Source of the DNA: Norana najaformis
Taxonomy: Eukaryota > Annelida > Clitellata > Crassiclitellata > Hormogastridae
Length of the DNA stretch: 64,000 nucleotides
Reading direction: 5' to 3'
NCBI GenBank assembly: GCA_964023275.1
Contig: OZ029917.1
Span: 30,084,005 to 30,148,004 of the forward strand
Part shown: positions 4,385 through 63,531 of the stretch, piece by piece
Layout: every line of letters begins with the position of its first letter
Position numbering within the stretch: the first letter of the stretch is position 1
The notes under the pieces: generated by a model
Databases searched by the model: none
What the model was told of the DNA's origin: nothing
Seen by the model: only the letters and a program-made list of their open reading frames with translations
Program-made: the position numbers and the translations under genes

Positions 4385-7300
4385 CACCTTGTCACCTTGT
4401 GCTGTCAGCTCTTTGAGCTCTAGCGACCGTCATGATCAATCTTCTCCATTTCTTTCTTTCCAATGTCGCGTCCCTTAGTTGTGCCAAGTTCATTCCAGTT
4501 GCTTCGTGTATCTTGTCCATCCATTTTTTCCTTGGTCTCCCTTGTTTTCTCTTTCCCTCTCCACAAGCCAGCATCATTTCTTTTTCCAATCCATCTGATC
4601 TCATAACATGTCCAAAGAACCTCAGCTTTGATTTTAGCACTGTTTGTTGTAACGTCTCATCTTGCTCAATTCCAATCGCCTTGCGTACCCATTCATTAGT
4701 CCTTTTCTCCGTCCATGATGTTCTCAGCATCTTCCTCCATATCCACATTTCACAAGCATTGATTTTTTTCTCTATTTTCTTGGTCATTGTCCACGTCTCA
4801 CTGCCGTATGTTACTGTTGGTATAATCAAGGCCCTCACCAATCTTTTTTTCGTGTCTGTGCTCACATGTTTGTCTTTCCATATTTTTTCTAGTCCATTCA
4901 TTGCGGCTTTTCCAATCGCCACCCTTCGGTTTATTTCCATATCGCACTTTCCTTCTTTTTCTACTACTGATCCCAAGAATGTAAAGCTTGTTACCGTCTC
5001 TAATTCCTCTCCATCCACCATAAAACTGCCCTCCTCAGCTGTTGTCATGATCTTCGTTTTCTTTATATTGAAGTATAGTCCTGCTTTCTCGCTCTCTCTC
5101 TTCAGCCTTCTTATCAGTTCTACCAGATCTGTTTTTTTACCTGCTAATAGTGTTGTGTCATCTGCGTATCTCAGATTATTCAGTGTTCTTCCCGCTATCT
5201 TTACTCCCTCTTTTGCTCCATCCATTTCCGCCATCCTCATTATCCTTTCTGCATATAGGTTAAATAGGAATGGGGACAGAATGCATCCCTGCCTCACTCC
5301 TTTCTTTATTTTGATTCTTTCAGTATCTCCAAATTCAGTTCTTATTACCGCAATCTGTTCTTCGTACAATCCCTTGAGAAGTTGTATCAAGTGCCTTGGT
5401 ATTCCCATTTCTATTAAGGTTTTCCACATCAACTCATGATCAATGCAATCGAATGCCTTACTATAGTCAATGAAGCATATGTATAATTTTTGTCCATACT
5501 CCTTTTGTCTCTCCATTATCCACCGCATGTTGGCGATATGATCACGAGTTCCACGGGATTTCCTAAATCCTGCTTGGTTATCTGGAAGCTCCCTCTCTAT
5601 TATGTTCTCCATTCTTTTATGTATTATTTTAAGTAGTATTTTACTTATGTGCGATATCATTGCTATGGTCCTGTAGTTTTCACACTCTCTCGCATCTCCT
5701 TTTTTGAATATAGGGATAAAGATTGAGCTCTTCCAATCCTCTGGCCATTTTCCGGTTGTCCATATGATATTGCACATTTTTGTTATTGTCTTTGTCATTG
5801 TGCCATCTCCTGCTTTTACCATTTCTATTGGTATCCCATCCGGACCCGGTGCTTTATTGTCCTTCAGTTGTCTAATTGCCCATTCCACCTCTGCTTCCAA
5901 AACGTCCGGTTCCTTTTCATGTTCTGATGTATCGATTCGTTCTTTCATTACTCTCCTATCTTCACTGTACAGCTCCTCTGTGTATTCTTTCCATCTGTTC
6001 TTCATTTCCTCTTCGTCTGCGATTATGTGTCCATCCCTTGACCTCATTGATCCCATTCTTGGTGTGAATTTTCTCGTTATTTCCCTCACTTTTGAAAACA
6101 TTTCTTTAGTTCTTCCTTTCTTTCCCTCTTCCTCCATTTCCTTGCACATTGCATTTAGATGTTTTTCTTTGTCTATACGTGCTTGCTTTTGGAATGCTCT
6201 ATTCATTTCTCGTACCTTGTTTTTGTCTCCTTCTTTTTTTGCCTCCTTTCTTTCTACAGCTATGTTGATAGCATCCTTCGAGAGCCACGGAGTTGTTGTG
6301 ACTTTCTTTTTCTTCGGAATGTGTTTCTCAGCAGTTTCTAGTATTATTCCCTTCACCTTCTCCCACAGGTGGTTCGTGTCCTCATCTATCATCATCTCGT
6401 CCCTCTCTAATATTTCAAACCTATTCCTTATTTCCGTTCTGTATTCCGGTGTAATTCCTTTGCAGTCATACGTGTTCAGTCTTTCTCCTTTTTTCAATTT
6501 CTTCAATTTCGTTTGCACTGTTGCCACTAATAATTCATGATCAGTTCCACAATCCGCGCCTGGTCTCGTTCTTACATCCCTTATCGTGCTTTTCCATCTT
6601 TTGTTTATCAGTATGTAATCTATCTGATTCCGATATTTCCCATCTGGTGACGTCCAAGTGTACAGTCTTCTTTTTGGCTGTTCAAACCATGTATTCATTA
6701 TTCCCAAGTTGTTCCCATCGCAAAACTCTACTAATCTTTCTCCTGCCTCATTTTGTTCTCCTAGTCCATGACCTCCAATCGTGTCCCCTGCTCCTCCAGC
6801 GTACTTTCCCACCTTCGCATTGAAGTCACCAATGACCATTATTACATCTCCCTTAGGGATTCTATCTATTGTACTTTGCAGCTCATTGTAGAACTTTTCA
6901 TGCTCTTCTTCTTTTGCTATCGATGTTGGTGCGTACACCTGTACAATTGTTATGTTAACTTTCCTTCCCCGAAATCTTATGCTCAGTATTCTGTCACTCA
7001 CCGTGTCATATCCCATTATTGCATTTGCACTTGTCTGATCACACATGATTGCCACTCCATTTCTTCCTTTTTCCTCCTTCCCTGACATTATTATCTTATA
7101 GCCATTCCAATTAAAATGTCCTTGTCCTTTCCACCTTGTCTCGCTTAATCCCATGACTGATATTTCGAGTCGCTTCATCTCTCTCTGTATGACATCCATC
7201 TTTCCACTCTGCATACTACGCACATTCCACGTGCCTATCTTCATCTTCTTCTTGCAGCTCAGGTTGAGTCTTTGCTTTCTGGTGCGATCCGCCTCTGGAC

Positions 7301-7695
7301 GTCCTTTCGGCTTTGGTCCCGTTGCTTCATTAGACCGGATTGCTCTTGACTCTCCATCTCGCTCTTTCCCAGTAGCTGTTAAGTCGCTCTCCGGCCTGGG
7401 AGTCTCACCATCTGCGACTATTGTTTTGCATGAATTGTCTTGTCTCATGACGGTTTTCTTGGCACTTTCACAGGGGTGGTTTGCCATTGCCTTCCCCTGG
7501 TTTTGCCTGCCGTGCCCGTTCGTTCCCCTTCCCATAGTGGAAAGGGTACTAACAGTCTGCACCACGTGAAGGTGGGCACGGAGGACTTTGACTCATCAGC
7601 CCAGGTCGGTTCCAAGTCTACGATCAAAGGATACGTCGGTCGGGTCTCCTCCCTGTTTTACTATAGGCAAGCTATAGTGGCTGACGAACCTTAGC
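4385..7695 (-). mobile_element. Full-length RTE-type LINE
   Basis: A complete RTE-clade non-LTR retrotransposon sits on the minus strand inside LINE A. A perfect 12-bp target duplication flanks it. Its 5' UTR is about 130 bp (7566-7695), followed by one 1057-codon frame and almost no 3' UTR. On the minus strand the end is two copies of ACAAGGTG, with the stop codon inside the first copy. The open frame, perfect duplication and complete ends indicate a young insertion. RTE elements encode an APE endonuclease and reverse transcriptase in one protein and are known for very short 3' ends of small repeats, which fits. Confidence 0.93.
4392..7565 (-). CDS. RTE endonuclease / reverse transcriptase, 1057 aa
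   Basis: This protein copies the element RNA into DNA at a nicked target. A basic, low-complexity N-terminus (residues 1-107) is followed by an APE-type endonuclease: WNVRS 113-117, SETRW 141-145, GDFNAKVG 246-253, QIDYIL 314-319, TDHELL 341-346. The reverse transcriptase follows: APGPDGIP 572-579, NQAGFRK 663-669, FIDYSKAFD 698-706 with catalytic Asp700, GVRQGC 756-761, and YADD 800-803. The C-terminal region has the usual RTE FFGHVMR (983-989) and GRPRKKW (1009-1015). All catalytic motifs are intact, so it could still be active. The stop codon TGA (4392-4394) lies inside the terminal repeat. The first Met at 7565 is taken as the start, though translation could begin at Met11. Large antisense frames across it are shadows. 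Confidence 0.93.
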   Translation of the reverse strand: MVQTVSTLSTMGRGTNGHGRQNQGKAMANHPCESAKKTVMRQDNSCKTIVADGETPRPESDLTATGKERDGESRAIRSNEATGPKPKGRPEADRTRKQRLNLSCKKKMKIGTWNVRSMQSGKMDVIQREMKRLEISVMGLSETRWKGQGHFNWNGYKIIMSGKEEKGRNGVAIMCDQTSANAIMGYDTVSDRILSIRFRGRKVNITIVQVYAPTSIAKEEEHEKFYNELQSTIDRIPKGDVIMVIGDFNAKVGKYAGGAGDTIGGHGLGEQNEAGERLVEFCDGNNLGIMNTWFEQPKRRLYTWTSPDGKYRNQIDYILINKRWKSTIRDVRTRPGADCGTDHELLVATVQTKLKKLKKGERLNTYDCKGITPEYRTEIRNRFEILERDEMMIDEDTNHLWEKVKGIILETAEKHIPKKKKVTTTPWLSKDAINIAVERKEAKKEGDKNKVREMNRAFQKQARIDKEKHLNAMCKEMEEEGKKGRTKEMFSKVREITRKFTPRMGSMRSRDGHIIADEEEMKNRWKEYTEELYSEDRRVMKERIDTSEHEKEPDVLEAEVEWAIRQLKDNKAPGPDGIPIEMVKAGDGTMTKTITKMCNIIWTTGKWPEDWKSSIFIPIFKKGDARECENYRTIAMISHISKILLKIIHKRMENIIERELPDNQAGFRKSRGTRDHIANMRWIMERQKEYGQKLYICFIDYSKAFDCIDHELMWKTLIEMGIPRHLIQLLKGLYEEQIAVIRTEFGDTERIKIKKGVRQGCILSPFLFNLYAERIMRMAEMDGAKEGVKIAGRTLNNLRYADDTTLLAGKKTDLVELIRRLKRESEKAGLYFNIKKTKIMTTAEEGSFMVDGEELETVTSFTFLGSVVEKEGKCDMEINRRVAIGKAAMNGLEKIWKDKHVSTDTKKRLVRALIIPTVTYGSETWTMTKKIEKKINACEMWIWRKMLRTSWTEKRTNEWVRKAIGIEQDETLQQTVLKSKLRFFGHVMRSDGLEKEMMLACGEGKRKQGRPRKKWMDKIHEATGMNLAQLRDATLERKKWRRLIMTVARAQRADSTR

Positions 7696-50829: not shown

Positions 50830-51672
50830 CTTATTCACAAGCACTGGGTTGTCCAAAGATGCCATAGGAAGAACAAAATCCGGTTGTCAGAGGAAGAGAG
50901 AAGGGGACAGAGCAGCAGTTACGGTGGGTTGTGTTTAGGTTTAAAGAAATGGGAACGTGGTGGATTGGATGGATCAGGGTAAGATTTCTTGAAAAGGTGC
51001 AACTTCAGTTTTGAATGGAATGCCTGAGGAGTAATAGATAGGGAGGTTTGAGACAGATGATGGTGGGTGAATGACAGAATGGATAGAGGAATGGAGAATT
51101 TGTGAAATTCAGGAGTTTCATTGTTCAAGAGTCGAGGTGTGGTATGGTATATGGATCAGTTAGAGAACTTAAAATGAGTAGTTACAGAGTATAGGCAAGA
51201 TTGAAGTAAGAGGACAAACGGGTAGAGTGGAATGATTGAATGGTAAAAAGTTTGCGAAGATAAGTAGACTGGGAGTATTGCAGGGAGTTATAGGTTAGAG
51301 AAAGAACTTTGAAATGAATGTGTTCATGGATTTTAGCCAGTGGGGGGATTTCAGGATGGGAGTGATATAGTGATGCTTGGGTGTCCTTGGTAACAGCTTG
51401 GGCTAGTGAATTTTGAATGAGTTGAAGACACTTAATTTGAGTGAATTCAAGATTAAGAAAGAGGGAATTACAATAGTCAAGCTTGTAGTGGACAGTAGAA
51501 GTAGCAGTGGGAAAGGCAGTTTTAAAATTGAGCAAAAATTGGCAAAGATTATGAATTTGAGTGATAGAGGTGTGTGACAGGTTGGAGATGTAATTTGAAA
51601 AACAGTTTTGAAAATCAAATTTGACAGTCTTAGCATCACCTTTGACCCACATCTGTGATTTGAAATGCACCT
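50830..51672 (-). mobile_element. LINE I/J, C-terminal and 3' part
   Basis: Minus-strand frames (51182-51670 and 50919-51128) give YKLDYCNSLFLNLEF, QIKCLQLIQNSLAQAVTKD, IHFKVLSLTYNSLQYSQ and HSKLKLHLFKKSYPDPS, the thumb and C-terminus of a CR1/L2-type LINE. The N-terminal remainder is at 56452-58500, on the far side of an LTR-element fossil. Together they look like one LINE split by that insertion. Confidence 0.8.
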
Positions 51673-51833
51673 GGCTGTTGGAGTGTTTGAAGGTGTGTTT
51701 TGTTGATGTGTGTTATGAGTTGAACCCCTTGCAGTGAGTTCCTTAATAAATGTGTCAAATAACTGTTGAAGTTGTGTGAACTGATATGTCGCTGAAACAC
51801 GTTTTCCAACTCGTATCATTATTGAGTGCCAAG

Positions 51834-51948
51834 CTGAAGAGAAAAATGTCCGTCAGGAAGAGAAAATGTCCGTCCGAAGAGAAAACTGTCCGTCAGGAAT
51901 AGAAAACCATCTGTCCGGAGAAGAAAATCCGTCTGTCTGAAGAACGAC
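51834..51948. repeat. ~22-bp minisatellite (GAAGAGAAAATGTCCGTC)
   Basis: About five imperfect head-to-tail copies of GAAGAGAAAATGTCCGTCMG lie inside the LTR-element interior. Confidence 0.8.
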
Positions 51949-52023
51949 CCATTCATTCAAGGAAGTTCATTTGAGGTTCCTAGCAGAAATGGAGAAATGT
52001 CCAAAAAATTTGATGTTTTGGTC

Positions 52024-52200
52024 TGGTGCAGTTGGTCAACCATGCCATTCCGTTGGTTCACCTGGTTAGCCGTGCTGTTCCGCTGGTCAGGTGCTTTGGT
52101 CGACTGGTCAGTCATGTCGTTCCGCTGGTCAGATGCTGTGGACAACTGGTCAGTCATGCTGTTCTGTGGGTCGACTGTTCCGTTCAGCTGGTCAACCGCT
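52024..52200. repeat. 42-bp minisatellite (CTGGTCAGTCATGTCGTTCC)
   Basis: About four copies of a 42-bp unit rich in CTGGTC. Read in minus frame they give repeated DQRN and MTDQ motifs, which I take as a by-product of the 14-codon period. Confidence 0.85.
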
Positions 52201-52379
52201 CCTGTCAGTCTGGTTCAGGCTGCAGGTGCAGTAGTTGCGTCCAGTCGTCTGATGAGTCTCAAGCTGGGTCCGGTTTGTTGCGTTCAGCCGAACGTGATGT
52301 TACCAAGTATCTCCATGCGACCGGATGAGCCCGAAGGTGTCAGCACTCACCATGAACCAGTGTTCTGAGAATGGTCATT

Positions 52380-53549
52380 GTTTGACGTGAACATGTCATT
52401 AAAAAAGAGGTGCTTTACATTTGGGAAAGCTTACGGTTTTGCTTCCGCCTGTTGGTTGCTTGTCTGCATAAAGTCTATTTTTTAACTTTTTAAACTCTAA
52501 TAGGGGTACTTACATTTAGATTTTAATAGAACAGTGGATTTTAGATATGATTGGAGGACAGTATTTGATGTAAGGCTCAATTCATTTATTGGCTTTGAAG
52601 GGTGTAAGAGTTCTTATTTGCAGTTATTACAGTTACAACTTCCCTTCAATTATAAATCAGTTATAAATGATAGTGACTGGTGAATTTTGTTATAGTGATT
52701 GTTAAAAGAATTTTTGTGCTTGAGTGAATTTGAGTGATAAGTTGTTGCAATGGAATTTTGGTTTAATTTTTATGGAGGTTAGAGATTTATCTTGTGGAGT
52801 TGGTGAGGGGTTTAGTATGCTTCTACGATGGAACTTTGTTGAGATTGTTGTAATGTGTTTTGATAACCTTGTGGTACCTCATAGAGGTCTGGCTATGTCG
52901 TGTGGTAAATGTATGTGTCTAAGTCTATGGAACCTTTGTGGTATATTTTGACAACCTTTTGTTGCCACATGGAGGTCTGGTATGTTGTGTGTGTCATGCA
53001 TAGAGTGTATTTAGTGTATATGTGATTTATGATTAAATGTTCCATCCAGAGTTCCTAAGTTGGAGTTAATGTATGAGAATAGAGTTGATATTATCTGTCT
53101 ATCATGTTGGTTTTGTGTAGATATATTGAATTGTGCATTTTCCGGGTTCGTTTGAGTCTCGGACTTTTTGTCATACATACCTGAGCTTTTGTGGGATGTC
53201 TTTTACATGTTCCCTAATCTTTATGGCTATTTTTTTACCAGGTATGGATTTTGTGCAGTCTTGTATAAGTCTGTGTGACTTTTAATGCATGTTGCATTTT
53301 GTATGTCCGAGTTACCCAATGTTCCAGTATAAGTAATAAACTGTTAGTTTTGGTAGGATTTGTTGTTGTGTACTATCCTTAGATTGGATTGATGGTTTGA
53401 TATGTAATTGTTGGTAGACTTGTTGATTGGATTGTGAGATGTGTCTTTGTGTGTGGTGAGGAAAGGTGGCAATAGTATGTCGTGTGAGAGGCTAGGGTAT
53501 GATTATATTGTTTGTGGTTTTAGGGTTTCTAGGTCCTATTACACTGGAT
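52380..53549. other. G/T-skewed non-coding stretch
   Basis: From about 52700 to 53530 the + strand is markedly rich in G and T. Two related segments (AACCTTGTGGTACCTCATAG near 52866 and AACCTTTTGTTGCCACATGG near 52951) indicate a local duplication. There is no coding similarity. It probably belongs to the LTR-element interior. Confidence 0.5.
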
Positions 53550-53684
53550 CACACGAAAAATTTTTTCGCCTGCTACTAGGCATAAGTTATGTGTACTACA
53601 CTAAATCGAATCTGCTGATTCCAAATCTGAAGTCAGATTTTGTGTAGCACGTCAGGATCTTAAGATATGCAGCATACGTGCTAA
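53550..53684 (+). repeat. Terminal inverted repeat, left arm
   Basis: Pairs with 55820-55950 in reverse complement. The best core is TCTGCTGATTCCAAATCTGA (53611-53630) followed by AGTCAG. It also contains a near-palindrome CGAAAAATTTTTTCG at 53554-53568. Confidence 0.75.
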
Positions 53685-53890
53685 TAATTATGCAAACTCT
53701 TTACAGAACTAGTATTTCCTTATAACTGTGTAATTATGCAAACTCAGAGTATTCATAACAAGAAACAAAATGTTATTCTTTTATAACTTGAAATTAAAAT
53801 ATGTTTTAAAATGTAATATAAATATATGTATGTTACTCAGATGAAAGCATACATTTCGAAATTTTGTCTCTAGCTTAACTCTATACAAGT

Positions 53891-55582
53891 TCAAAAGTGC
53901 TTTAGACACTTGCTCTTGCGCTTGTGAGTGGCCGCTGTTGCCCGCTGCAGAAACCAGCAGTAATCGCCCATCATGTTGGAATTGCAGTGGCCCTGATATC
54001 TTGCTTCAAAGGTGGAGATGTCTTGATGGAATCTCTCTCCATGCTCATCGCTTACATCACCCAAGTTTGGTGGGAAAAAATCCAGATGGGAATGTAAGAA
54101 ATGTATTTTTAGTGACATCCGGCAGCCGAGTTGCTTATATGCTGTTAGCATGTTGCTAACGAGTTCAGCATAGTTCTCAGCTCGGTGATTCTCAAGGAAG
54201 TTTTGCACCACCAACGTACATGCATCCCAAGCGGCAAATTCCAGTGGGTTGAGCTTGGTTCTAAATACAGTATCACGCATTAGTTCGCGGATTTCTGGCC
54301 CAATAAAAATTCCAGCCTTCAGCTTAGCATCAGTTTTGATGGCTCCAAATTTATCTCTCAGATACTGGAAGCCTTGTCCAGTACGATCCATTGCCACTAC
54401 GAAATTCCTCATGAGGCCCAGTTTAATGTGAAGTGGTGGTAAGTACACTTTCAATGGATCAACCAATGGTTCGTGTTGCACGTTGTGCCGACCAACAATG
54501 TGCTCAGATCTAGGAGGCCACAGTTTCACTTTGTAATGGTTGCTGTCATCACGACTATTCCACAAGCACAAAAAGCACATATGTTTTGTGTACCCCAGCT
54601 GTAGGCCTAGAATAAGTGCTACCACTTTGGGGTCCGCACAGATGTTCCATTTGTGGTCTGAGTAGTTGATCACTTTCAAAATGAGTTTCATTGAATCATA
54701 TGTCTCTTTGAGGCCTACAGCGTGGGCTATAGGAACAGACGGCTTTTCGTTACCGTTGTGCACCAACACATCTTTCAAGCTCGCTTGGCTGGAATCTATG
54801 AACAGTCTCCACTGATCAGGAACGTATTCGCAACCTAAATTCAGCATGAGACTGTTCACGTCAGTACAGAAACAGATACAATTTTCCAGTTTGTAATATG
54901 TAGCTAACGGTTTGTGACGATAACGGAAGTGTGATGTTGTGGTACCTTTTTGAAGCAAGTTCCACTCCCCTAGTCTGGAGGCTAACAGTTCAGATTTCTC
55001 CTTTGACAAAGATAGGTCCCTCACCAGATCATCTAACTCACCTTGCCTTATCAAATGCGGCCTTCCCTCTTCCAAATCTTGATCACTGGATTCATAAACA
55101 GTAACATCATCTTCTGTATTACCATCAGAACTGCCTGTTTCATCAGCACCCGCAGCAGGAGGAAATGGTACTGGATTCTCTTCATCATGCGGCACTGGCT
55201 TTAGAGCGGACTCGCAATCAGGATAAACGATTTTAGACTTATTTTTCTTTGAAAATCCAGCAACTTTAGTAATGCAGAAATAACAGTCTGCATGATGATT
55301 TCTTGGCTCGTGCCACACCATAAGCACAGCAAACGGCATTGAATTCCTTTTGCCATCCAGCCACTGTGTAAGCCCAGAGTAGCACACGGTGCAGCAGACA
55401 TGAGGTGCCCAACTTTTATCCTGGTCTCCGATTTGACATCCAAAATAATACTTGTAAGCAATCATCACTCTCTTAGTTAACTTCTTGCGCTGGTCACAAA
55501 GAGTATATTTACCACAAACATAGCAAACATTGTCTGGATGGTTAACACAGCCTCGCCTATTCATTTCAAAATTAAATCTCAC
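53891..55582 (-). CDS. Uncharacterised 563-aa protein, candidate DDE transposase
   Basis: An unbroken frame. The N-terminus is cysteine-rich (C20-x2-C23, C29, C49, C64-x2-C67, C100-x2-C103), a likely zinc-binding module. An acidic, Ser-rich linker (about 131-175) follows. The large C-terminal region has FIDSS (262-265 core, Asp263), PSVPIAHAV (281-289), NICADPK (313-319, Asp317), CFLCLW (336-341), LPPLHIKLGL (381-390), a His-rich LKIHFLHSHLDFFP (491-504) and SDEHGERFHQD (511-521, Glu513/Glu516), then MMGDYCW (537-543) and a basic end. I recall close relatives in cnidarians, arthropods and molluscs, all unnamed. The three acidic blocks could form a D-D-E catalytic centre of RNase H fold, which is inference. 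Met7 could be the true start, given a TATA-like box close upstream. Confidence 0.85.
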   Translation of the reverse strand: MRFNFEMNRRGCVNHPDNVCYVCGKYTLCDQRKKLTKRVMIAYKYYFGCQIGDQDKSWAPHVCCTVCYSGLTQWLDGKRNSMPFAVLMVWHEPRNHHADCYFCITKVAGFSKKNKSKIVYPDCESALKPVPHDEENPVPFPPAAGADETGSSDGNTEDDVTVYESSDQDLEEGRPHLIRQGELDDLVRDLSLSKEKSELLASRLGEWNLLQKGTTTSHFRYRHKPLATYYKLENCICFCTDVNSLMLNLGCEYVPDQWRLFIDSSQASLKDVLVHNGNEKPSVPIAHAVGLKETYDSMKLILKVINYSDHKWNICADPKVVALILGLQLGYTKHMCFLCLWNSRDDSNHYKVKLWPPRSEHIVGRHNVQHEPLVDPLKVYLPPLHIKLGLMRNFVVAMDRTGQGFQYLRDKFGAIKTDAKLKAGIFIGPEIRELMRDTVFRTKLNPLEFAAWDACTLVVQNFLENHRAENYAELVSNMLTAYKQLGCRMSLKIHFLHSHLDFFPPNLGDVSDEHGERFHQDISTFEARYQGHCNSNMMGDYCWFLQRATAATHKRKSKCLKHF

Positions 55583-55594
55583 ACACTAGCTACA

Positions 55595-55603
55595 GCTATA
55601 TAA
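55595..55603 (-). promoter_or_regulatory. TATA-like box upstream of the 563-aa gene
   Basis: TTATATAGC on the minus strand lies 13 bp before the first ATG (55582) and about 31 bp before Met7 (55564). If used, transcription would begin near 55570, favouring Met7 as start. Confidence 0.35.
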
Positions 55604-55819
55604 GAAAACTTCACCTTCGTTCTACGCAATCTCGCCTTATGTACTGGTATTGATGCTGACGTCAGCTCGCTGACATGCCCAACCATGTCTAGCGGCTGCT
55701 GCAGGCTTGCTGTTAGAAATATTTCAAGCGACACTTGCAGGCATGCACGTATCACTGGCAGCAATCGTGGAGAAACATACAACAGAATGTACAGCCATAA
55801 CCGAAAACGAGTCCTTATG

Positions 55820-55950
55820 TCATTACTTGAATGCATGCATAACTTAAAATCTAGACATGCTGGGCAGATTCTGACTTCATATTTGGAATCAGCACATTTG
55901 AGTCAATATAAGGCACATGCATTACTTTCAGTAGCAAAATCGTTGTGACT
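55820..55950 (-). repeat. Terminal inverted repeat, right arm
   Basis: Reverse complement partner of 53550-53684. The small + strand frame 55685-55948 overlaps it and is not considered a gene. Confidence 0.75.
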
Positions 55951-55963
55951 AATAATTATTAGT
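55948..55963. repeat. Perfect 16-bp palindrome at element edge
   Basis: ACTAATAATTATTAGT is its own reverse complement and sits exactly at the outer end of the right inverted arm. It may be the preferred target or a border motif. Confidence 0.7.
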
Positions 55964-56451
55964 TGAACATTGCTGTGAACTTAATATTGGTAGAGTCTGG
56001 ACTATGTTTGGAATAGGTTGCTTTGTCTAATGTTGTACAGTAGGGATTGTCTGGTTAATGTGTTCGGTCACCCCGTGGATCCCTCATCTTTTGGTTGGGG
56101 GGTATGCTGCGAGGGCATGTATGTTAGGGAAGGTTGGTTGGGTCTGAAGGTGACACGTGCCCATGCAACAGTCTATTCATAACATGTGCTCGTGCACCTG
56201 TCTGTTGAAGGAGAAAAGGTAAAGAGGGAAGGTTACTTGGGTCCCAGAATGTCTTGCCCATGCACCTGTCTGTTGAAGGAGTGTTGAAGGTGTGTTCTGG
56301 AAGGAGTTTAAGACTATATAAATGGGAAATTTTATGTTGATGAGTGTTATGAGTTGGATCTCTTGCATAAAATTTGTTAATAAACATGTAAAATAACTGT
56401 TGAAGTTGTGTGAACTGATTTGTCGCTGAAACACATTTTCCGACTTGTAAC

Positions 56452-58500
56452 AATTGTGTTCAGGCAAATTAGAGGTGAAAGTAAGAGTGGATGAATTAGT
56501 TGATAGGTGTATAGAAGATTCAGGGATGTTCTTGATCTGATCTGATCTGATACACAAAGAACAATACAGTTTTGACAGAGTTGAGGCAAATTAGGTTAGA
56601 GGACATTCATTTTGAGATTTGGTTGACAACATCAAGCAACTGAGTGATGGATGAGGAAAAGGAACTTGGAGAGAAGGAAATGAAAAATTGATTGTCATCA
56701 GCATAAAGAGTGTGCTCGAATGAAGAGGATTCTATGAGATGGCTCAGTGGCGTAGTGTACAAAATGAAAAGAAGTGGCCCTAGGATGGAACCTTGAAGGA
56801 CACCACATGACAGTGGGAGGGGTTGTGAACAATAACAAAGCTTCTACAGAAAAAGGAGTGGAAAGACAAGCAAGACCAAAACCAGAGAAGAGCAATATCA
56901 GAGATGCCAAACCAGGAAGATAGTTGTTGAAGTAAGTCATGATTGATGGTGTCAAAAGTAGCAGAAATGTTGAGAAGACAGACAAGAGACTTGCTGATAA
57001 TTAACGGCAGAGACTGTGGGTGGTTTATTGTATAGAGAGACAAGCAGTTTCAGTGGAGTGATGTTTAGTGAATCCAGATTTGCAGGGATTGAGAAATGAG
57101 TTGGAAGAAAGGTAATCATTCAGCCTGGTAAGGACAATGTGTTTAGTTAGCTAAGATAATAAAGAAAGATTGGAGATAGGACAGTAATTACATAGGTTGT
57201 CTTTATCAAGATTTGCTTTTTTGAAGTGAACTGGCAAGAGAATGTTTGAAAGCCTGGGGAAAGTAAACCAATAGAGAGAGAAAGGTTGATTATATTTGTG
57301 ATAATTATAATAGGAACAAGGACAGAGGCACAGTATTTGAGAATAGAAGTAAGAGTAGGAGCTAGTTCGTATTGTTTGGTGGAATAGAATTTAGAAGGCA
57401 TGATACTATTCAGAGGCTGGAAGAAAAATTGAGATTCGAGACAGCTGTAAGGTAAGGGGAGTAGGATTGATAGAGGCACTGATTCAGTGTTTTAGTGAAG
57501 AGACAGAGGAGGAAAGTGAGTCGAGAAGGGATTGCATTGAGAAACTAAGGGATGAGATTTTATCAGAGAAAAATGAGCAAAAGTGTCAGTAATAGGAGGA
57601 GATAAGGAGCTTGGCAGTGGCTAGGAAGGCTTACAACAGAGAAGAGAGTTGACAGCTTTCAAGAGACGTCCTGGATTTGCTGAGTTGAAATTAAGTGAAG
57701 AGTAGGCCCTAATACTTTTTCTTAGCATAAGCAATAAGTTGGTGGTATTTGTTGGTGGCAGATTTCAGAGAAATATATGCCTTTGCCTTATATATGGGGT
57801 CAGTTGTGCACTTGTACATGTAAGTATGTTCAAGGCATCTGTGAAAGGATTTGAATTCTTAGAGGTAAGAAGTGAACCAAGGGTTATTTCCATGTGTGTT
57901 GTCTTTGGTAATGAGTGGCACATGAGTATCGAGGAGGTTGGTTAGTGTAGTGTTGTAGCAAGATAGGAATCATCAAGGGAAGGGGACGGTTTAAAACAAG
58001 TTCAAAGTTGATGATATCTTGCATGGAGGCTTGACGGTCAGTGAACCCGATCTGGCAGAAAGATTGGGAAGATGGAGAAGGGAGAGGAATAGTTTGATTC
58101 TCAGGTTGGCAATGATTAAGAACTCCACTGTGATTTTGAGAGCAGAGTGAGACAGATTAGAAGAGAAAGGAGAAATAGAGGAAGTGATAATACAATGATT
58201 AAGAACTGGACTGTGATTTTGAGAGCAGATTGAGACAGATTAGAAGAGAAAGGAGAAATAGAGGAAGTGATAATAAATCCAGAGTGTGATTCTTGATGTG
58301 AGTTGGGAAGTTGATGTGTTGGATAAGGTTGACTGATGACAAGATTCAAGAAGTCAGAAGCAAGAGTGTCATATGGGTTATCAACATGAATGCTGAAGTT
58401 ACAGAAAAGCAAGAACTCGTTAGGTGTAGTGGCTGTAAGTGAAAGGAGTGAGGCAAATTTATCAAGAAAGACAAAAATTTGGATGAGAAGGTATTCAGTT
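56452..58500 (-). mobile_element. LINE I/J, endonuclease to reverse transcriptase part
   Basis: Minus-strand pieces run from CNFSIHVD (endonuclease, 58390) through linker, SPGFQTFSCQFTSKK, FLNISATFDTINHDLLQQL-like, WFGISDIALLW, VPQGS-like sequence and a HTLYADDNQFFISFS catalytic box near 56700 to NLPEHN at 56452. The 5' end is truncated at about 58500. The rest of the element is at 50830-51672. The YADD box survives, but other parts are broken. Confidence 0.8.
58111..58273 (-). repeat. 83-bp tandem duplication inside LINE I/J
   Basis: Units at 58111-58193 and 58194-58273 are nearly identical (AATGATTAAGAACT ... GAGGAAGTGATAATA), differing at about three positions. Confidence 0.9.
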
Positions 58501-61429: not shown

Positions 61430-62143
61430 TCACCTTACCCTTATCCATGGAGCACATGATGTCGTTATGAACAGCAAGCAGGCAGATTCTGTTGAATGAA
61501 ATTTACGGTATGCAGACTGAAATGGAGAAATTAGTGGGTTGGAAGAAAGGTGAGCTTGCTTACGATTCAAAACTACCCCTTCAAGAATTTTAGATATAAA
61601 ATTCAAAGTTGAGATGGGTCTGTAATTAGACAGTTCACTTGGATCGAGAGAAGGTTTCTTTAGCAGAGGATGAACTATGGCATGAGCAAAACCAGAAGGA
61701 AAGGATCCCTCAAGCAATGAGAAATTGATAATTGATGTAATGGTTGGACCAAGGACATCAAAACATTCTTTTAGGTAAGAAGTGGGAATGGTGTCTAGGA
61801 GAGAGGTTTTGTCAGGTGAAGAAAATATGAGTCTGCGGACCTCCGCAAGAGTTGTTGGCAGAAAGTAATCCAAGACCGGAGGAGAAGAACTAGGAAGAAG
61901 AAATTTATCACATAACAAATAACCATTAAATTTCAGCCTTATGCCAGAAATCTTATCAGCAAAAAAGGTCAAAACTTTACTGGCTAGCTCTTGGGTAGCA
62001 CAGAACACTCCAAAAGATGAATTTAATTTCTCTCTGTATAGTAATTTATTCAAAGCCATCCACAGAGTTTTTGGAGATGTAGAACTTTCGGCAATTAAAT
62101 TAGTTAAATATTCTGATTTTGCTGAAGAAACAAGTTTGCACAC
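61430..62143 (-). pseudogene. LINE K linker and reverse transcriptase fingers
   Basis: The 237-residue frame contains PKTLWMALNKLLYREK, FADKISGIRLKF, TIPTSYLKECFDVLGPTI, LLEGSFPSGFAHAIVHPLLK, LSNYRPISTLNFISKILE and FQSAYRKFHSTESA. The next conserved block, LVLLDLSAAFDTVDHSLLL, lies at about 61380-61440 in another frame, so the break falls just before the first catalytic aspartate. Confidence 0.85.
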
Positions 62144-62760: not shown

Positions 62761-63531
62761 TCAAAGAGAGGGATGGGGACGATAAATATTTACAAGTAAA
62801 ACCTGTTTGTTGCCAGAAATGAGCGTAGCAGCTAGGACCTCAAATGACTTGGGTGTAGGAATAGGGAAAATGAATTTACGTAGTGGCAGATACGACTTGA
62901 AAAGAAAGGCGAGCCCTCCGCCTATGCCGCTGCACCGAGGCTCATTCAGCATAGTGAAGGTTGGGGGGGTAAGATCAGAAATGAATCCAGGTGTGTCACT
63001 AGGCTGGAGCCACGTCTCAGTAAGAGCAAGTATGTGTAAAGAATTCTCACAAAGAAAATTATGAAGGACGGCAGCTTTACTACGAAGGGAACAAATGTTT
63101 AATAGACCAATATCCAAATTTTTAAGTCTAGCAGGTCCTGGATTGATTTCAACATCACCAGCCAAAAGAAGCAACAGAAACAAATACATAGACAACCCAT
63201 GACATGTCGTTGAAGATGTTTTACATGAACTTACATTTAACCCACGACGGAAAATAATGTTAGGGGAATTGCATAGCAGCAGAACGTATGGCCGAATTGA
63301 ATAAGCAGTACTGGGAATCAGATAGTATGAATGAGCTTGAGCCAAATTCTTAAATAGACCAAACCGTAAGGACGCATGTGTGAAAGTGATAGACTTGTCT
63401 TCACCAGATTTTGCAAGCAGGACCAGGATGAACACAATACAGAACCAAAACAAACAGCGTAATGAGGCACCCATAATACGAGATAGAATTGAAGTCACAA
63501 GAAAACCAGAACAGCTTGAACCATGCAACAA
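62761..63531 (-). CDS. LINE K N-terminal region with 2A-like motif and endonuclease start
   Basis: The 256-residue frame starts with two hydrophobic segments (about 24-40 and 78-95). A leucine run then leads into LLLLLAGDVEINPGPA, with GDVEINPGP at 125-133. The 2A consensus is D-V/I-E-x-N-P-G-P; such peptides make the ribosome skip a bond between the last G and P. They are known in CR1-type LINEs of sea urchin, lancelet and molluscs, where the upstream part can act as a signal sequence. The endonuclease follows (LLNICSLRSK 143-152, ALTETWLQPS, GGGLAFLFKS, VNIYRPHPS). The motif is complete, so skipping is plausible. Confidence 0.85.
   Translation of the reverse strand: MLHGSSCSGFLVTSILSRIMGASLRCLFWFCIVFILVLLAKSGEDKSITFTHASLRFGLFKNLAQAHSYYLIPSTAYSIRPYVLLLCNSPNIIFRRGLNVSSCKTSSTTCHGLSMYLFLLLLLAGDVEINPGPARLKNLDIGLLNICSLRSKAAVLHNFLCENSLHILALTETWLQPSDTPGFISDLTPPTFTMLNEPRCSGIGGGLAFLFKSYLPLRKFIFPIPTPKSFEVLAATLISGNKQVLLVNIYRPHPSL
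63133..63159 (-). promoter_or_regulatory. 2A-like ribosome-skipping motif
   Basis: Codes for GDVEINPGP preceded by a run of leucines. It matches the D-V-E-x-N-P-G-P consensus exactly. Confidence 0.85.

Follow-up and report, generated by a model that had tools for sequence, protein, structure and literature searches.

Chapaev transposases are characterised by the motifs C(2)C, LH and H(4)H, and the elements have CAC/GTG ends (PMC4079192). The Chapaev3 group, whose earliest families are traced in that account to Repbase in 2007, produces TWA target duplications between an A and a T, and its transposase is mostly encoded by a single exon (PMC4079192). Five Merrow and Garfield entries described there are 2,289-2,455 bp long and encode 554-562 aa, and among the shorter entries are Garfield_DP (2,092 bp) and Conan_ET (1,865 bp, 461 aa). 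The same source names lampreys and others as hosts of Merrow, the tenrec and a lizard as hosts of Conan, and silkworm, Rhodnius, a bracovirus and others as hosts of Garfield (PMC4079192). The wider CACTA-Mirage-Chapaev-Transib clade includes RAG1; features shared by its members are C(2)C and H(3-4)H, the ends are mostly CA..TG, and its additions comprise ESTA, designated in 2025, together with Plavaka and Lanisha, which were placed there too (PMC12730594). The Pfam models DUF1280 (Chapaev), DUF1258 and Transposase_21 are described as linked to Chapaev, Mirage and CACTA/EnSpm (PMC3985635). RAG1 has D600, D708 and E962 as its catalytic residues, and its zinc is bound by C727/C730 and H937/H942 (PMC4914335).

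The window analysed here is a stretch of 64,000 nt (64 kb) from contig OZ029917.1 of the annelid Norana najaformis. On the minus strand an ORF is open without a break from 55582 to a stop at 53891-53893. Its first ATG is at 55564, which gives an intact, single-exon gene for a putative transposase of 557 aa (53891-55564, minus strand). A sequence-only reading of this DNA had proposed an intact gene of 563 aa. The frame is indeed unbroken, but the length of 563 aa requires a GTG start, which the bacterial table permits, and an in-frame TAG lies two codons upstream of that GTG. Residues are numbered here from the Met at 55564 and are six below those of the sequence-only reading. All of the blocks that it listed were present in the translation: the acidic blocks FIDSS (D257), CADPK (D311) and SDEHGERFHQD (E507 and E510), the CFLC pair (C330 and C333) and the N-terminal cysteine array, with CxxC at 14, 58 and 94.

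The residues of the transposase fall in the order D257, D311, C330-x2-C333, L378-H379, H488-x4-H493 and E510. The Chapaev3 trio of C(2)C (C330/C333), LH (L378-H379) and H(4)H (H488/H493) was thus found in order between D311 and E510, and a second LH is located at 490. The C(2)C and H(3-4)H pair shared across the clade likewise lies between the second D and the last E. When the protein was shuffled, 428 of 20,000 shuffles contained the ordered C(2)C, LH and H(4)H pattern between a D and an E. Of the two candidates E507 and E510, the latter is the probable catalytic Glu, judging by its position behind H(4)H.

The ORF is flanked by terminal inverted repeats. The left repeat (53542-53729, plus strand) begins CACTGG and is strongly similar to the right repeat from 53571. 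The outer end of the right repeat (55791-55947, minus strand) reads ...TCGTTGTG; its outermost bases are imperfect and fall short of those on the left. Compared flank against flank, the repeats scored 95, against a best score of 50 among 500 dinucleotide shuffles, and the inverted flanks noted earlier from the letters are real. By itself this score does not single out the flanks: the window is rich in repeats, and the two best of 440 random pairs of stretches taken elsewhere in it scored 92 and 77. Over their entire aligned length the repeats match at 118 of 167 compared columns (71%); an ungapped run extends over 101 nt at 72%, and the best 71 nt are 80% alike. Each repeat carries one copy of a 23-nt core, a candidate transposase-binding site, at 53615-53637 (plus strand) and 55870-55892 (minus strand). 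The two copies differ by one base, and further copies were absent from the rest of the 64-kb window.

The element is about 2.4 kb long. Its left junction, at 53538-53544, reads A-TTA-CAC: an A at 53538, the putative left copy of the target-site duplication, TTA, at 53539-53541, and CAC after it. This left end, 53542, was picked post hoc using the Chapaev3 rule, and an earlier placement at 53550 gives no duplication. ATWACAC occurs 10 times on the plus strand of the window, the left junction included. By our own estimate, and having looked for it after the rule was known, we consider it unlikely that the motif would lie by chance this close, within a few bases, to the end of a repeat. At the right end, GTG at 55945-55947 is followed by AC and then by TAA-T (55950-55953), two bases outside the terminal GTG. 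This TAA, which differs by one base from the left TTA, may be the right target copy, an assignment that is tentative and was read from the sequence. At their extreme outer ends the repeats align uncleanly, and none of the 14 occurrences of GTGTWAT in the window falls at the right end of the element.

The element sits wholly between two direct LTR copies. A 5' LTR remnant occupies 51665-51818 (plus strand), the gapped similarity reaching back to 51665, and the 3' LTR lies at about 56105-56452 (plus strand). The copies at 51698-51818 and 56332-56452 have the same orientation and are 84% identical over 121 nt. A G-rich, polypurine-like tract, read from the sequence at 56090-56102, immediately precedes the 3' LTR. 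We read this arrangement as the insertion of the transposon into the interior of an older LTR retroelement.

We compared the element with Chapaev3 by the published description of that group. It resembles Chapaev3 in the motif trio, the CAC end, the A-TWA left side and the single exon, and its about 2.4 kb and 557 aa agree with the sizes given for five Merrow and Garfield entries (PMC4079192). Those two families have two exons in that account, whereas the gene here is a single ORF, as in most other Chapaev3, and the element is longer than Conan_ET. It departs from the Chapaev3 rule at its right end, which is unclean, with GTG-AC-TAA-T instead of GTG-TWA-T. Chapaev proper, Mirage and CACTA/EnSpm are described as having the C(2)C...H(3-4)H layout and, in most cases, CA..TG ends, and Pfam returned no match for the transposase. 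hAT, MuDR, P, Kolobok and Dada also carry a motif after the second Asp, but there it is C/DxxH by the descriptions in PMC3706591 and PMC10045372. This group was set aside, as the transposase has CxxC and, again, no Pfam match. Sola2 was considered and also set aside, by the description of the cited amoeba elements, whose duplications are AT-rich and 4 bp long and one of which encodes an 888-aa transposase (PMC3627910).

Searches of Pfam, PHROGs and NCBIfam with the whole transposase at a limit of E 10 returned 0 families, with the qualification that the HMMER filters remove most matches above about 0.1 despite that limit, and Pfam searches with four pieces of the protein gave no match. PDB sequence searches returned chance matches or none, and neither RAG1 nor Transib was among them. 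The sequence collections searched for relatives were viral, bacterial/archaeal, phage and plasmid, and hold few or no animal sequences. In the viral and bacterial/archaeal genome contigs none was found by a search that required exact short peptide or DNA patterns and was accordingly insensitive; three pattern scans gave 7, 50 and 25 matches, none of which tblastn confirmed. In phages and plasmids tblastn gave no match. A set of 17 loci (15 + 2) sharing one short motif had a best E of 0.22 and was dropped as chance. Four exact peptide strings of the transposase had no occurrence in the literature searched. Two single-sequence structure predictions, one for the entire protein and one limited to residues 205-557, reached pLDDT 33 and 31, respectively, and were unusable.

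The transposase was also compared with mouse RAG1, the letters of which were taken from a PDB chain. The block holding the second Asp and C(2)C (residues 311-333; 54566-54634, minus strand) aligned without gaps to mouse RAG1 708-730. Between D311-C333 and D708-C730, 8 of 23 positions were identical and the BLOSUM62 score was 41, whereas the next best register of the RAG1 block in the transposase scored 5. When the 20 inner residues were shuffled, their score was reached in 15 of 20,000 cases, and the RAG1 block scored no higher than 29 against 739 further frames, each 80 residues or longer, drawn from the window and 17 loci. The remaining parts of the protein gave no significant similarity to RAG1: 109 of 500 shuffles were equally good for the catalytic half and 399 of 2,000 for the C-terminal block, and for the LH block 787 of 20,000 shuffles did as well, with a different register scoring higher. 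A pattern D...D-x17-19-CxxC...HxxxxH...E near the RAG1 spacing appeared in 257 of 20,000 shuffles, and a looser pattern was frequent by chance (5,321 of 20,000).

The transposase and RAG1 thus have in common a D-x18-C-x2-C block and an H-x4-H ahead of the last Glu, with the same distances from the second Asp to C (19) and from H to H (5). The spacing between the first two Asp residues is 54 in the transposase versus 108 in RAG1, and the distance from H to E is 17 (H493-E510) versus 20. The transposase is the shorter protein, and the letters compared were those of RAG1.

Judged from its letters, the locus very probably carries a DDE DNA transposon. The repeats, the nesting, the motif order and the RAG1 block all support the initial proposal of a DNA transposon that encodes a D-D-E transposase of the RNase H-like type. 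We further consider it highly likely that the element is a full-length, possibly autonomous cut-and-paste transposon of the Chapaev3 type inside an LTR retroelement. The filing under Chapaev3 is based on layout, not alignment, and no family model matched. The suggestion that the gene could define a new superfamily is not supported: the motif trio, the CAC end, A-TWA-CAC, the length and a single-exon transposase of this size (557 aa) have all been published for Chapaev3. The element probably does not represent an undescribed superfamily; Chapaev3 is an already described animal group, distantly akin to RAG1. This corrects the claim of novelty and does not overturn current knowledge. It also indicates that layout can suffice to place an open gene in a known transposon group when Pfam, NCBIfam and PHROGs give no match.

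From these residues and ends, and by analogy with the clade, we infer the fold of the protein, its zinc, its DNA binding and cutting, and possibly activity at present. Both inverted repeats would be recognised by the 557-aa transposase, and its N-terminal cysteine array and the 23-nt core may mediate this contact. Cutting at the CAC/GTG ends would be the work of an RNase H-like two-metal site formed by D257, D311 and E510. As in RAG1, a structural zinc, bound by C330/C333 and H488/H493, would brace this site. Joining of the ends to an A-TWA-T target would then create a duplication of 3 bp. An intact single-exon copy of this kind could help in the study of DNA cutting by compact relatives of RAG1.

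Membership in Chapaev3 rather than in a sister lineage is likewise something we infer. The transposase could instead represent an unnamed lineage of the CACTA-Mirage-Chapaev-Transib clade, near Chapaev3 and outside it, with the same cut-and-paste chemistry. This would agree with the empty family-model searches and with a comparison made to a published description of Chapaev3, and the clade is still growing, as ESTA, Plavaka and Lanisha illustrate (PMC12730594). We regard such a lineage as unlikely, given that length, protein size, single exon, motif trio and A-TTA-CAC all coincide with the published features of Chapaev3 (PMC4079192). There is only a slim chance that the protein is a host-retained or separately evolved transposase of the RAG1 clade, with its own N-terminal cysteine array and outside Chapaev3; were this so, the RAG1 catalytic core would gain a further compact relative, of 557 aa. 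Placement outside Chapaev3 in a tree would change the name of the element, and the clade-like working proposed for its transposase would stand.

The Chapaev3 reading has to account for an open ORF between repeats that differ. In simulations with substitutions only, the ORF was still open in 168, 34, 2 and 0 of 500 runs at 0.02, 0.05, 0.09 and 0.115 substitutions per site, respectively, and stops would be expected in it if all of the difference between the repeats had arisen after insertion. Therefore, either the two repeats differed from each other before the element inserted here or selection has preserved the gene. The latter would be the case for a domesticated copy, in which the host retained the gene of a former transposon and the ORF stayed open while the repeats decayed; repeats that are 71% alike overall and 80% over the best 71 nt fit this, as do the stops expected in the simulations. 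However, inverted repeats need not be identical in active families, and this copy is flanked by LTRs and retains its candidate catalytic and zinc residues. We consider domestication very improbable; that the repeats were already unlike at landing is the likeliest explanation. Least credible of all is that the flanks are inverted by chance and the ORF is a normal gene of the host or was picked up by the LTR retroelement: the element does lie entirely between both LTR copies and two random pairs came near the observed flank score, but the repeats, well above the shuffle maximum, bracket the ORF, and a transposon accords with both the order of the motifs and the left end.

Several other repeats were recorded in the window. 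The LTR retroelement remnant (51665-56452) contains 42-nt tandem repeats at 52053-52178 and repeats of about 31 nt at 51836-51927, and a related LTR, starting TGTTGCAAGG, is found on the minus strand at 12303-11937. A search of the window against Rfam gave no match at the gathering score. The frame at 61433-62143 (minus strand) had a weak RVT_1 match (E 0.00014), under the Pfam cut-off, and is probably a piece of a decayed LINE; the frame next to it, 62764-63531, had no match at the default limit. A LINE at 4395-7565 (minus strand) has an unbroken frame of 1057 aa with Exo_endo_phos (E 2.5e-13) and RVT_1 (E 1.6e-37) domains. Because this endonuclease/RT frame is intact, not all other elements in the window are dead, and the initial statement that nearly every other mobile element there is dead has to be qualified. 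An adjacent tandem pair of 83-nt units, 96% identical, is present at 58110-58275.
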